A DNA stretch of 64,000 nucleotides from Halobacterium salinarum DSM 3754 (lineage in GTDB: Archaea > Halobacteriota > Halobacteria > Halobacteriales > Halobacteriaceae), in NCBI RefSeq assembly GCF_008124605.1, contig NZ_VRYN01000001.1, positions 732,772 through 796,771 of the forward strand, given 5' to 3'. Positions 37,269 to 58,215 of the stretch are shown piece by piece. Position 1 is the stretch's first letter. Each line of letters begins with the position of its first letter. Made by a program: the position numbers and the translations under genes. The notes under the pieces were generated by a model. That model made no database searches, was not told the DNA's origin, and saw nothing but the letters and a program-made list of their open reading frames with translations.

Positions 37269-38301
37269 CCTCGCCGTCGTCGTCCCGAAACCCGACAGCC
37301 AGACCGCCATCGACGGGCTGGAGGACGAAGGCGTCTACGACGACCGCCGGAAAGTCCGAGAACACGACGCCGACCACGTCGAACTCCCGGTCACCGCGGA
37401 GCCCGACGCGGTTCCGTTTGAGCGCGCCATCGCCCAAGCAGACCCCGATCCTCGCGCCCCCGACCTCGGCGACCGCCTGCGCGAGCGCGGCTGGTCGGCC
37501 GCCGAGCGCGAGCGCGCCCCCTCGTCGTGGGCGGTCCTCGGCAGCGTGATCCTGGCGGACTTCACCGACTGCCCCCGGCCCGGTGAGGTCGGGGCCGCGC
37601 TGCTGGAGCTCCACCGCGAAGCCGACACCGTCCTCGACCGCGGCGACGGCGTCGCCGGCGAACACCGGACCCCGGACGTCTCGGTCGTCGCCGGGGACGG
37701 CGACACCGAAACCGTCCACGTCGAGCACGGCACTCGGTACGCGCTGGATCTCGCTGCTGTCATGTTCTCGCCGGGGAACAAGGCCGAACGCGCACGCATG
37801 GGCGACGCCACCGGCCCCGGCGAGCGCGTGCTGGACATGTTCGCGGGCGTCGGCTACTTCGCGCTCCCGATGGCCCGCGCCGGCGCGACCGTCACCGCCG
37901 TCGAGAAAAACCCCACCGCGTTCCGCTTCCTGGCGGAGAACGCCCAACTCAACGACGTCGCCGAGACGCTCGACACCATTCTCGGGGACTGCCGCGAGGT
38001 CGACGCGCCCGCCGACCGGATCGTCATGGGGTATTACGACGCGCTCGGCGGCGGTCCCGTCGGCGACGCCGCGTCCACCCCCGGCTATCTGGACGCGGCC
38101 CTCGACAACCTCGTTTCCGGCGGCGTCCTCCACGCCCACAGCGCGGTTCCGGAGGCGGAACTCTGGGAGCGCCCGCTCTCGCGGCTCCGCGCCGGCTGCC
38201 AGCGCGCCGGCCGCCCCGCCCCCACGGTGTTGGACACGCGGCGCGTCAAATCACACAGCGAAGGCGTCTTCCACGTCGCCATCGACGCCCGCGTTCCCTA
38301 G
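37261..38301 (+). CDS. taw2: tRNA-Phe wyosine enzyme Taw2 (SAM-dependent aminocarboxypropyltransferase)
   Basis: A 346-residue class I SAM-binding protein of the Trm5/Tyw2 family. The SAM motif is VLDMFAGVGYFALPMA near residue 195. At the position where Trm5 methyltransferases have an NLP motif this protein has RIVMGYYDALGG, as in Tyw2/Taw2, which transfers the 3-amino-3-carboxypropyl group of SAM to tRNA-Phe position 37. The N-terminal half is the usual tRNA-binding part. Its 8-bp overlap with nmd3 indicates cotranscription. Confidence 0.85.
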   Translation: MRSLAVVVPKPDSQTAIDGLEDEGVYDDRRKVREHDADHVELPVTAEPDAVPFERAIAQADPDPRAPDLGDRLRERGWSAAERERAPSSWAVLGSVILADFTDCPRPGEVGAALLELHREADTVLDRGDGVAGEHRTPDVSVVAGDGDTETVHVEHGTRYALDLAAVMFSPGNKAERARMGDATGPGERVLDMFAGVGYFALPMARAGATVTAVEKNPTAFRFLAENAQLNDVAETLDTILGDCREVDAPADRIVMGYYDALGGGPVGDAASTPGYLDAALDNLVSGGVLHAHSAVPEAELWERPLSRLRAGCQRAGRPAPTVLDTRRVKSHSEGVFHVAIDARVP

Positions 38302-54799: not shown

Positions 54800-54814
54800 C
54801 CCACCCCCGACGGA

Positions 54815-54825
54815 ACGCTTTTCCC
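54815..54825 (+). promoter_or_regulatory. TATA-like element before the pheST leader
   Basis: ACGCTTTTCCC is centred about 27 bp before the ATG at 54848, so a transcript starting at the leader peptide ATG would be leaderless for that peptide and carry about 155 nt ahead of pheS. Confidence 0.5.
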
Positions 54826-54847
54826 CACCGCCCCCGTCGCCCCGAAC

Positions 54848-54928
54848 ATGGTGCCCGAACCCCAGATCCGATGCATGAGGCCCGAAACAGCGCCGCATCC
54901 CGGGTTCGGATTCTTCTTCGACGCCTAA
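54848..54928 (+). CDS. Putative phenylalanine leader peptide of pheST
   Basis: A 26-codon frame between the HD-domain gene and pheS. Its last nine residues read PGFGFFFDA, four phenylalanines in six positions, encoded by TTC codons just before the stop at 54926-54928. A TATA-like box at -27 makes the ATG a good leaderless start; an in-frame ATG at 54875 would give 17 residues. Downstream lie three hairpins. Phe-rich leader peptides regulate pheST and pheA by attenuation in bacteria; a matching arrangement is inferred here. The peptide itself is probably only a sensor of Phe-tRNA supply. Confidence 0.6.
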   Translation: MVPEPQIRCMRPETAPHPGFGFFFDA

Positions 54929-54962
54929 CGCGTCGTTGCCCCACCGACAGGGGACCGCTGTC
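54919..54962 (+). promoter_or_regulatory. Attenuator-like hairpins before pheS
   Basis: Hairpin A pairs CGACGC (54919-54924) with GCGTCG (54930-54935), and its five-base loop CTAAC contains the leader stop codon. Hairpin B pairs CCCC (54939-54942) with GGGG (54950-54953). Hairpin C pairs GACAG (54946-54950) with CTGTC (54958-54962). B and C share bases 54946-54953 and so exclude each other. No U-run follows C, so the switch, if real, may act on transcription by an archaeal mechanism or on translation of pheS. Confidence 0.5.
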
Positions 54963-55003
54963 GTTCGGAACCGATAACTGACTGCCACGCACGCCTACAC
55001 GAC

Positions 55004-56512
55004 ATGCAACTCCCAACACAACAGGTCGCGGTGCTCGACGCAGCGAGCACCGACGACCCCCAACGCATCGAGGCCCTCGCGGCGGACACCGACTACCCGC
55101 CGGAGACGATCGCCGGCGCGGCCCTCGCCCTCGAAGCCGAGGGCTTGGTCGCCGTCACCGAGACCACCACGACGACGGTCTCGCTCACCGACGAAGGCCA
55201 CGCCTACGCCACGGACGGACTCCCGGAGGTCCGCCTCTACCGGGCCGCCCTCGACGCGGGTGCCGACGACACTCCCGTCGAGATGGGCCACGTCATCGGC
55301 GCTGCCGGACTCGACGGCGCTCAAGTCGACATCGCGTTGTCGAACTACGCCCGGAAGGGATACGGCACCATCGATTCGGGCGCACTCGCCGCTGACCCCG
55401 ACGCAAACCCCGACGACGATCCCGAAGCGAACGCCCTCGCCACGCTCGCCGCCGGCGACACCCTCGCCGACGACGCCGTCCTCGATCAGCTCGCCAGCCG
55501 TGATCTCGTGACCGTCAGCGAGCGCACGGTGCGCTCAGTGACGCTCACCGAGGCCGGCGTCACGGAACTGATGGCCGGCGTCGAAGCCACCGACGAGGTC
55601 GGCGCACTCACCCCCGAGTTGCTCGCGTCCGGCGAGTGGGCGGACGTCGAGTTCGCGGACTACAACGTCGCCGCCGACGCCGCCGCCCACACACCCGGGA
55701 AGCCCCACGTCCTCCGGCAGGCCGCCGAACGCGTCACTGACGTCCTCGTCGGGATGGGGTTCCAGGAGATGGACGGCCCCCACGTCGACGCCGACTTCTA
55801 CATCAACGACTGCCTGTTCATGCCACAGGACCACCCCGCCCGGAACCACTGGGACCGGTTCGCGCTCTCGAACCCCGCGCGGATCGACGAACTGCCCGAC
55901 GCCCTCGTCGAGCGCGTCGAACGCGCGCACCGCGAGGGAGCCGGTGACGACGGCGACGGCTACCACTCGCCGTGGGACGAGGACTTCGCGCGTGCGCTCG
56001 CGCTCCGCGGACACACGACGAGTCTCACCGCCCGCCACCTCGCCGGCCTCGCGGACGCGGACGTCGAGGCCCCCGCCCGCTACTTCAGCGTCGAAAAGGC
56101 CTACCGCAACGACACTCTCGACGCCACCCACCTCCTGGAGTTCTTCCAGATCGAAGGCTGGGTGCTGGCCGACGACCTCTCGGTGCGGGACCTCATGGGG
56201 ACGTTCCGGGAGTTCTACAGCCAGTTCGGCATCCACGACCTCCAGTTCAAGCCCACGTACAACCCCTACACGGAGCCCAGCTTCGAACTGTTCGGCCGCC
56301 ACCCCGAGACCGGGGAGCTCATCGAGATCGGGAACTCCGGCATCTTCCGCCCGGAGATGCTCGACCCGCTGGACGTCGACGGCGACGTGATGGCGTGGGG
56401 GTTGGCCCTCGAACGCCTGCTCATGCTGATGACCGGCTTCGAGGACATCCGGGACGTCCACGGGACGCTGTGTGACGTTGGGTTCCTGCGGAACGCGGAG
56501 GTGGTGTACTGA
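55004..56512 (+). CDS. pheS: Phenylalanyl-tRNA synthetase alpha subunit
   Basis: A 502-residue class II synthetase subunit of the archaeal/eukaryotic type. The N-terminal 200 residues contain winged-helix domains that bind tRNA; the catalytic core begins around residue 240, with motif 2 RYFSVEKAYRND and motif 3 near GIFRPEMLDPLD and VMAWGLALERLLML. It charges tRNA-Phe together with PheT, and its stop overlaps the pheT start (TGATG). A weak TATA-like CCGATAACTG lies at about -27, so an internal promoter is possible besides the leader transcript. Confidence 0.96.
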   Translation: MQLPTQQVAVLDAASTDDPQRIEALAADTDYPPETIAGAALALEAEGLVAVTETTTTTVSLTDEGHAYATDGLPEVRLYRAALDAGADDTPVEMGHVIGAAGLDGAQVDIALSNYARKGYGTIDSGALAADPDANPDDDPEANALATLAAGDTLADDAVLDQLASRDLVTVSERTVRSVTLTEAGVTELMAGVEATDEVGALTPELLASGEWADVEFADYNVAADAAAHTPGKPHVLRQAAERVTDVLVGMGFQEMDGPHVDADFYINDCLFMPQDHPARNHWDRFALSNPARIDELPDALVERVERAHREGAGDDGDGYHSPWDEDFARALALRGHTTSLTARHLAGLADADVEAPARYFSVEKAYRNDTLDATHLLEFFQIEGWVLADDLSVRDLMGTFREFYSQFGIHDLQFKPTYNPYTEPSFELFGRHPETGELIEIGNSGIFRPEMLDPLDVDGDVMAWGLALERLLMLMTGFEDIRDVHGTLCDVGFLRNAEVVY

Positions 56513-58215
56513 TGCCCGTCGTCGACATCGACCCCGACGAACTCCGCCGGCTCACCGGCCACCGCAGCAAGGACGACGACGAGCTCCGCCAGGACCTCTT
56601 CGGGCTCGGCATCGAATACGAGGGCGAAACCGAGGACGGCGAGTTCAAACTCGAGTTCGAAGCCGACCGCCTCGACCGCCTCTCCGTCGAGGGCATCGCG
56701 CGCAGTCTGCGCTACCACGCCGGCGACGACCGCGGGGTCGACATCCCGGACACCAACGCCCCGGAGTGGGCGATCGACGTCACCGACGTCCCCGCGGATC
56801 GCCCGTACGTCACCGGCGCCGTGATCCGGGGCGTCGACCTCGACGCGGACGCCCTGGACTCGCTCATCCAGCTCCAGGAGAAACTGCACGCCACGATGGG
56901 CCGCAAGCGAGCGAAGGGCGCCATCGGCATCCACGACCTCGCGATGCTCAAAGGCGACACCGTCGACGGCGACGGCACCGCCGCACGCTCGCTCACGTAC
57001 ACGGGCATCGACCCCGACGGCGACACGTTCGTCCCGCTCGACGACGACGCCGAACGCACGCCCGCCGACGTGCTCACCGAACACCCCACCGGCGAGACGT
57101 ACGCCGACCTCCTGGCCGACCACGACACCTACCCAGCGATCTACGACGACATCGGGCTGTTCAGCTTCCCGCCGGTCATCAACGGCCGCCGCACCGAGGT
57201 CACCACCGACTCCCGGGAGCTGTTCGTCGAACTCACCGGCACCGACCAGTGGACCATCGACCGGATGTGCGCCATCATCTGTTACGCGCTGGACGCCCGT
57301 GGGGCGACCATCGAGGACGTCACCGTCGACTACCCCGACCGCGAGCTCCACCGCCCCGACTTCGCGGTCCGCACCAAACACGTCAGCCACGACCGGATCG
57401 AGACGCTGCTCGGCGTCGAGTTCACCACCGAGGCGGTCGTCGATCTCGCCGAACGCGCCGGCCTCGACGCCACCCCGACCGACGACGGCTACGACGTCGA
57501 AATCCCGCCCTACCGCGTCGACGTCCGCCACCCCGTCGACGTCGTCGACGACCTCGGGCGCGCGTACGACTTCAACGACCTCACGCCCCGCTATCCCGAC
57601 GTCAACACCATCGGCGGCCGCACCGAATCCTCGCGCCTCGAACGCTCGGTGCGACAGGCGCTCGTCGGGCTCGGGTTCGAGGACCTCCTGAACTTCAACA
57701 TGACCAGCGAGGCCGAGAACTTCGACCGCATGCGGCTGACCCCCGACCACGACGCGGTCGGCGCGGCCCAGCCGGCCACCATCGCCGAACCCTACAGCCA
57801 GGACTTCACGATCCTTCGCACGTGGGCGCTGCCCTCGCTGGCGATGGTTCTGGAGACGAACACCCACCACGCGTATCCGCAGGACCTCGCCGAAGTCGGG
57901 TTCGCCGCCCACGCCGACGGCGACACCCAGACCGGGGTCGCCGAACGCCGCACCGTCGCCGCCGTGCTGGCCCGCAACGACGCCTCCTACGAGGACGCCA
58001 AGGCCCGCCTCCAGGCGCTTTGCGACGAGTTCGCGGTCGCCCTCGAAACGCCGCCCACCACCCATCCGTCGTTCATCGACGGGCGCGCCGCCACCATCGA
58101 GATCGACGGCCAGCCGGCCGGCGTCATCGGTGAACTCCACCCCGGCGTCATCGTCGAACACGACGTCGAAGTGCCGGTCGCCGGCTTCGAGTTCGAACTC
58201 GACGCGCTCCGTTAG
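56512..58215 (+). CDS. pheT: Phenylalanyl-tRNA synthetase beta subunit
   Basis: A 567-residue subunit. The N-terminal part has the B3/B4 editing domain (LQEKLHATMGRKRAKGAIGIHD near residue 120), B5 domains follow around 270-345 (IPPYRVDVRHPVDVVDDLGRA), and a catalytic-like class II fold completes the protein. The start at 56512 overlaps the pheS stop, so the two subunits are produced in coupled amounts. Confidence 0.96.
   Translation: MPVVDIDPDELRRLTGHRSKDDDELRQDLFGLGIEYEGETEDGEFKLEFEADRLDRLSVEGIARSLRYHAGDDRGVDIPDTNAPEWAIDVTDVPADRPYVTGAVIRGVDLDADALDSLIQLQEKLHATMGRKRAKGAIGIHDLAMLKGDTVDGDGTAARSLTYTGIDPDGDTFVPLDDDAERTPADVLTEHPTGETYADLLADHDTYPAIYDDIGLFSFPPVINGRRTEVTTDSRELFVELTGTDQWTIDRMCAIICYALDARGATIEDVTVDYPDRELHRPDFAVRTKHVSHDRIETLLGVEFTTEAVVDLAERAGLDATPTDDGYDVEIPPYRVDVRHPVDVVDDLGRAYDFNDLTPRYPDVNTIGGRTESSRLERSVRQALVGLGFEDLLNFNMTSEAENFDRMRLTPDHDAVGAAQPATIAEPYSQDFTILRTWALPSLAMVLETNTHHAYPQDLAEVGFAAHADGDTQTGVAERRTVAAVLARNDASYEDAKARLQALCDEFAVALETPPTTHPSFIDGRAATIEIDGQPAGVIGELHPGVIVEHDVEVPVAGFEFELDALR

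Follow-up and report, generated by a model that had tools for sequence, protein, structure and literature searches.

The pheST operon of Halobacterium salinarum DSM 3754 was found to be preceded by a short leader ORF ending in a cluster of phenylalanine codons, and we interpret this leader, with a probability of about three in four, as a cis-acting, ribosome-mediated sensor of Phe-tRNA charging for pheST that probably works by attenuation. The ORF, its cognate codons, a helix inside the ORF (H1), a second element found after the stop codon in relatives (H2), and the spacing and conservation of these parts can be read directly from the sequences analyzed.

In the window (the whole stretch of 64,000 nucleotides that was analyzed), 204 bp separate the stop of the upstream ORF (54799) from the pheS ATG (55004), and the leader ORF lies inside this interval at 54848-54928 (+). 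It contains 26 codons encoding the peptide MVPEPQIRCMRPETAPHPGFGFFFDA followed by a stop, with the Phe codons at 54905-54907 and 54911-54919 (+). A previous reading made from the letters of the window (the sequence-only reading) had described a 26-codon frame with a Phe-rich end between an HD-domain gene and pheS, and this frame was reproduced exactly. The leader is followed by pheS (55004-56512, +), the alpha subunit of phenylalanyl-tRNA synthetase according to the ORF list and homologous named pheS loci, and by pheT (56512-58215, +), the beta subunit, whose start overlaps pheS and whose name comes from the operon context and the sequence rather than from a separate search. In a DNA pattern search, the GFGFFF codon pattern occurs only once in the genome. 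The leader peptide matched no known protein or leader family in Pfam or NCBIfam at E-values up to 10, and the leader RNA likewise matched no known Rfam family, with no hit to the covariance models (leader and T-box families included) in the window region or in the leaders of six relatives. As judged from its sequence, the leader shares with bacterial leader-peptide attenuators of the trp/phe type a small reading frame ahead of the operon in which the cognate codons are clustered.

The leader is present throughout much of the class Halobacteria, where it takes the form of an ORF of 24-28 codons that ends in GFGFFFA and is placed before pheS as on a leaderless mRNA. All thirteen genomes of the same genus, Halobacterium, carry it upstream of pheS as MASEPHAGR...PGFGFFFA and variants, and six of the seven genera of the family have it. 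Counted over related genomes and not as independent events, the leader occurs at about 65 of the 80 named pheS loci from haloarchaea and can be recognised in roughly 36 of another 60 genomes, picked so as to cover many families, with a few doubtful cases among them. The GFGFFF DNA pattern was found in 170 of the 392 genomes of the order, compared with about 14 hits for a reversed control pattern. The peptides range from 24 to 48 amino acids in length across relatives, and their conserved parts are the N-terminal M-A-[SP]-E-[SP] and the C-terminal GFGFFFA; in these comparisons the conservation of the leader peptide is far beyond chance. The sequence-only reading had named a lack of conserved Phe codons in related genomes as a point against it; the GFGFFF tail is class-wide, and this check did not refute the reading. 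The leader is missing from Halarchaeum, part of Halorubrum and several deep or small-genome lineages. Stages of decay were also observed. In four Halorubrum-type loci (L127, L137, L182 and L220) the Phe run decays to DAFEPFFD or DAFRPFFA, with H1 kept and both of its arms changed. In L227 (f4 g34) the leader is decaying and has lost its stop codon, so that reading runs through H2, and in its sister L177 (f4 g34) the leader is lost and the 3' half of H2 is retained.

Helix H1 is formed between codons 3-5 of the leader (xCC GAA YCC) and the GGR TTC GGN codons that encode the first Gly-Phe-Gly. In the window, the 5' arm CCGAACCC (54855-54862, +; codons 3-5) pairs with the 3' arm GGGTTCGG (54902-54909, +), which contains the first Phe codon, and both arms covary across relatives. 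The third base of the Gly codon, which is silent, changes with the first base of codon 5, the combinations being C-G in 40 leaders, T-A in 35, T-G in 16 and C-A in none; this position is paired in 91 of 92 cases, against a mean of 75 and a maximum of 83 after shuffling. Complete 9/9 pairing was found in 106 of 144 distinct leaders, whereas shuffled partners gave 60 on average and 72 at most. In Halorubrum both arms are replaced (CTCGAACGC/GCGTTCGAG) and the peptide becomes MALERA..DAFEPFFD, and in two f4 genomes (L178 and L216) the helix, as read from the sequence, appears to have moved by one base, with the usual SEP/PES residues changed to PNA. Because the H1 arms covary, and change residues in Halorubrum, L178 and L216, the conserved N-terminus of the leader is best explained by RNA structure and not by the peptide. 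Although H1 loops can be anything between 35 and 104 nt long, the distance from the 3' arm to the stop stays nearly fixed, the arm ending 16 nt before the stop in 99 of 137 loci and 13 nt before it in a further 26.

Element H2 is a hairpin just past the leader stop, found in nearly all relatives with the leader; its internal loop (5' side GG-Y-GGA, 3' side GAAACC) is nearly invariant, and its upper stem varies. Over 52 sequences, 83.5% of the cells are paired against 63.6% in shuffles, and the covariation score is 0.49 against 0.15 when shuffled; sliding one arm destroys the signal. The GG of H2 lies 7-13 nt after the first base of the stop codon in most loci. A covariance model of H2, run without using the ORF, matched in 34 of 99 genomes, mostly once per genome, and at all thirty of the loci retrieved a leader starting with ATG is open in frame, ends Phe-rich and is followed by pheS. 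Since these hits were found without the ORF, the in-frame leader at each of them provides independent, indirect support for the predicted translation. In the window itself the model finds no H2 near pheS, and the best match elsewhere (37663-37722, 21 bits) lies within apparent coding sequence and was taken as chance. The spacer between leader and pheS is about 34 bases shorter in this species than in the closest relative, and the post-stop spacer at 54929-54963 (+), the site of H2 in relatives, is here occupied by species-specific hairpins. H2 is thus, from the search and the shorter spacer, lost in the window's own species.

These species-specific hairpins are those that the sequence-only reading had proposed as the switch, namely A (54919-54935), B (54939-54953) and C (54946-54962), with A acting on the choice between B and C; B, C and the 3' arm of A fall in the post-stop spacer. 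All three can be drawn at these places and B and C do share bases. They are absent from sister species, and the folding of this region is no better than that of dinucleotide shuffles (z = 0.09 for 54911-55003 and z = 0.54 for 54929-54980), so that they were abandoned as the switch; the conserved structures are H1, which had been overlooked, and H2, which is lost in this species and had not been named. A classical 2:3 antiterminator, in which the 3' arm of H1 (GGRTTCGG) would pair with CGAAACC of H2, was also set aside, as the pairing is perfect only in some Halobacterium and has a fixed central mismatch outside them. The proposal of an attenuator in front of an archaeal pheST is partly supported, and is right about the kind of mechanism: what stands is the leaderless-type ORF with cognate codons, present class-wide with the spacing that control by ribosome position would require. 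Its detailed hairpins do not stand, and no terminator of the bacterial type was seen.

Promoter P1 lies at 54811-54822 (+), positions -37 to -26 from the leader ATG, and consists of a BRE-like CGGAAC and a TATA-like GCTTTT (54817-54822, +); as noted from the sequence before, the TATA-like box stands one leaderless distance ahead of the ATG, ending 26 bases upstream. In 120 of 128 loci, the first base of the T run within the TATA box stands at -30 or -29 relative to the leader ATG. This is the usual place of a haloarchaeal promoter for a transcript that starts at the start codon, and a leaderless leader mRNA is therefore predicted. Leaderless transcripts make up 72% of the protein-coding transcripts in the data reported for Haloferax volcanii (PMC4983044). 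A second promoter-like box, P2 (CGGAAC-CGATAAC; 54966-54978, +), which the sequence-only reading did not mention, includes a TATA-like stretch that spans roughly -31 to -26 relative to the pheS ATG, and some pheS transcription could start from it without passing through the leader. This promoter-like box, RGAACCGNTAAC, is conserved about 30-47 nt before pheS in the window and in all pheS upstream regions, and it is kept even where the leader is lost. In the published start-site map of Haloferax volcanii, no start is listed at the place equivalent to P2 (PMC4983044).

Published data on Haloferax volcanii show transcription through a uORF in the pheS 5'-UTR. By differential RNA-seq, Babski et al. 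2016 listed 16 uORFs in 5'-UTRs of 150-250 nt (PMC4983044, Table 2), among them a 26-aa uORF (pI 5.9, 2772 Da) before pheS (HVO_2948), for which the table gives no additional pheS start. We equated this uORF with the Phe leader by its gene and by its length and pI as tabulated; the Haloferax leaders in our collection are mostly 26 aa long, and five have a pI of 5.9 and masses of 2792-2850 Da. The uORF table gives size, pI and mass, and that section of the paper makes no mention of cognate codons, RNA structures or attenuation (PMC4983044). A single pheS transcript start downstream of 54962, named by the sequence-only reading as a point against it, is contradicted in Haloferax volcanii by the start reported there at the uORF (PMC4983044).

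The spacing of H1 and H2 around the Phe codons and the stop fits a switch set by the position of the ribosome. We folded 115 loci with the ribosome footprint blocked: with the ribosome on the Phe codons, H1 has a value of 0.00 and the lower stem of H2 about 0.4, and with the ribosome at the stop codon H1 has 0.62 and H2 0.04. This two-state pattern was kept for four footprint sizes, the longest rear footprint lowering H1 at the stop to 0.34, and a ribosome at the leader stop would cover the start of H2 with its front footprint. No conserved direct pairing competition between H1 and H2 was found. As the result for switching is based on footprint geometry and thermodynamic folding, it is consistent with such a design and is not proof of switching. 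From these observations we infer the following course of leader translation, pausing on the Phe codons, switching and output. RNA polymerase would start at P1, placing the leader AUG at or next to the 5' end of the mRNA, and a ribosome would initiate on this leaderless ORF. With ample Phe-tRNA it would reach the stop, H1 would close behind it and its front would cover the 5' arm of H2; with scarce Phe-tRNA it would halt on the Phe codons, holding H1 open and leaving H2 free to fold. Depending on the state, more or less pheST mRNA would be made from P1, most likely because transcription is attenuated in one of them and released in the other.

A second leader was found before trpS2. In 30 of 31 loci (the trpS2 leader loci include L292-L295 and L322-L381), trpS2 is preceded by a leader with W-R-W or close variants at leaderless-type spacing; that of the window's genome, MQSAPCGWRWRVRGADSFAAAA, lies before trpS2 outside the window (G000:C1, about 583,100-583,300). 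The Trp codons sit in the loop of a hairpin GTCCGCTCYC/GRGAGCGGAC, which changes to GTCCACTTCC/GGAAGTGGAC or GTCGGCTCTC/GAGAGCCGAC with the pairing kept by covariation. The Trp-leader pattern was found in 77 of the 392 genomes with no control hits, and all thirty loci inspected lead into a tryptophanyl-tRNA synthetase gene; in L365 the leader precedes a more distant homologue of this synthetase (30% identity). A 23-aa uORF is also listed before the tryptophan-tRNA ligase gene HVO_A0127 in the Haloferax volcanii uORF table (PMC4983044). That two leaders without relation to each other both carry codons matching the synthetase behind them is difficult to account for unless charged tRNA is being sensed. 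H2 was not seen at the trpS2 leaders. A pyrimidine-rich stretch, GCTCMCTCGCTTTCTC, is conserved about 50-70 nt after the Trp leader stop and before trpS2, and in L338 the leader ORF stops before the 3' arm of the hairpin (MESTSHATNHWWCP, then stop), yet both arms are kept. A simple codon-run search for His- and Trp-run leaders was uninformative, and one candidate ending in WWWW (L265) was set aside by eye as a likely tRNA-antisense artefact.

The output step in this reading is putative. No hairpin-plus-U-run terminator was found between the leader and pheS, and no U run follows the leader stop in the sequences examined; the T runs counted lie within the Phe codons. Because an intrinsic terminator was tested for and not found, we did not file the leader in the bacterial attenuator family, and for the same reason we infer the output step. 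It is perhaps termination by the archaeal factor FttA, which depends on U-rich RNA located 30-36 nt back from the RNA 3' end and not on a hairpin-U terminator (PMC11616081). Given this distance, a halted ribosome could mask the FttA site, and the Phe codons could supply the U-rich loading site. Among the second to fourth Phe codons TTT has a share of 22%, compared with 4% in pheS, third-base T occurs 32, 63 and 27 times at the second, third and fourth Phe positions against about 6 each, and where Val replaces Phe the codon is GTT in 10 of 13 cases. The remaining leader body is also rich in third-base T (322 against 101 expected, about 3-fold), so that the T enrichment in the Phe codons is only suggestive of an FttA site; Halobacterium leaders have UUCUUCUUC, without a U run. 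A haloarchaeal class of attenuators (pheST with Phe, trpS2 with Trp), in which the leaderless ORF senses, FttA is the effector and a halted ribosome covers the U-rich loading site, is put forward tentatively, at odds well short of even.

Other explanations were weighed against the charging sensor. The ribosome position might act after transcription, on mRNA stability or on access to the pheS start, with termination unchanged. The lack of a hairpin-plus-U-run terminator and the full long 5'-UTR reported on the pheS mRNA of Haloferax volcanii (PMC4983044) speak for this, but about 100-200 nt lie between the leader and the pheS start, for which no pairing with H1 or H2 can be seen, and a missing hairpin-U terminator would not count against FttA-type termination, which uses U-rich RNA (PMC11616081); we regard this alternative as unlikely. 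It is quite improbable that H2 is the real switch, as a binding site for a protein or tRNA (PheRS, or tRNA-Phe in T-box fashion), with the ORF setting only spacing or folding. A nearly invariant internal loop on a variable stem is what a binding site would look like, but this explanation leaves the Phe codons, and the Trp codons of trpS2 where no H2 is seen, unexplained, and no Rfam family, the T-box included, matches in the window region or at the leaders of six relatives.

A conserved small protein of 24-28 aa with its own function, standing before pheS by happenstance, would account for the conservation at both ends of the peptide, and the 26-aa uORF of Haloferax volcanii is listed as a possible small protein in the uORF section of the published study (PMC4983044). 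Against it, H1 accounts for the N-terminal residues and the silent Gly base follows codon 5, Halorubrum keeps the CTCGAACGC/GCGTTCGAG pairing while the peptide changes, the apparent shift of H1 in L178 and L216 alters residues, the length differs between leaders by as much as 24 to 48 aa, and the peptide has no match in Pfam or NCBIfam; we consider a small protein highly improbable. Chance formation of the ORF and hairpins in one genome holds for A, B and C, which fold no better than shuffles, but it is already refuted for the ORF, H1 and H2 by class-wide conservation with covariation, and as an account of the leader it deserves almost no credence.

Ribosome-mediated attenuators are well known in bacteria, among them the leader peptides PheM of E. 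coli pheST and PheL of pheA, and the trp leader. The haloarchaeal leader resembles them in having a short ORF with a run of cognate codons before the same pheST operon and RNA helices placed so that the position of the ribosome would decide which one forms, and its early hairpin around the leader is similar to the 1:2 pause hairpin of the E. coli trp leader. It differs in being archaeal and in that the ORF is on a predicted leaderless mRNA, H1 is contained in the ORF and includes the first Phe codon in one arm (3'), no intrinsic terminator comes after the leader, and an element with a conserved internal loop, H2, follows the stop codon. In Rho-dependent attenuation of the tnaC type, a halted ribosome and a loading site for the termination factor are combined with nascent-chain arrest; here a halted ribosome could similarly mask a termination-factor site, with the U-rich Phe codons as candidate for FttA loading, whereas the leader would respond to a shortage of charged tRNA and the role of FttA is putative. 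T-box riboswitches also control aminoacyl-tRNA synthetase genes by charging, and a string resembling the T-box, GAGGGTGGACGCG, can be picked out by eye in one relative, but no specifier loop was identified, there is no Rfam hit, and the host is an archaeon with a coding ORF carrying cognate codons. Within the archaea, the leaders resemble the two tabulated Haloferax volcanii uORFs, of 26 aa before pheS and 23 aa before the tryptophan-tRNA ligase gene (PMC4983044).

Literature searches on archaeal attenuation, and on leuA-Halobacteria, a haloarchaeal RNA motif, returned nothing relevant. A 2021 paper dealing with transcription in archaea states that no archaeal case of attenuation or antitermination at the level of transcription is known (PMC8448881). 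If the reading of the leader as an attenuator with FttA as its effector is true, attenuation would become known from an archaeon for the first time.
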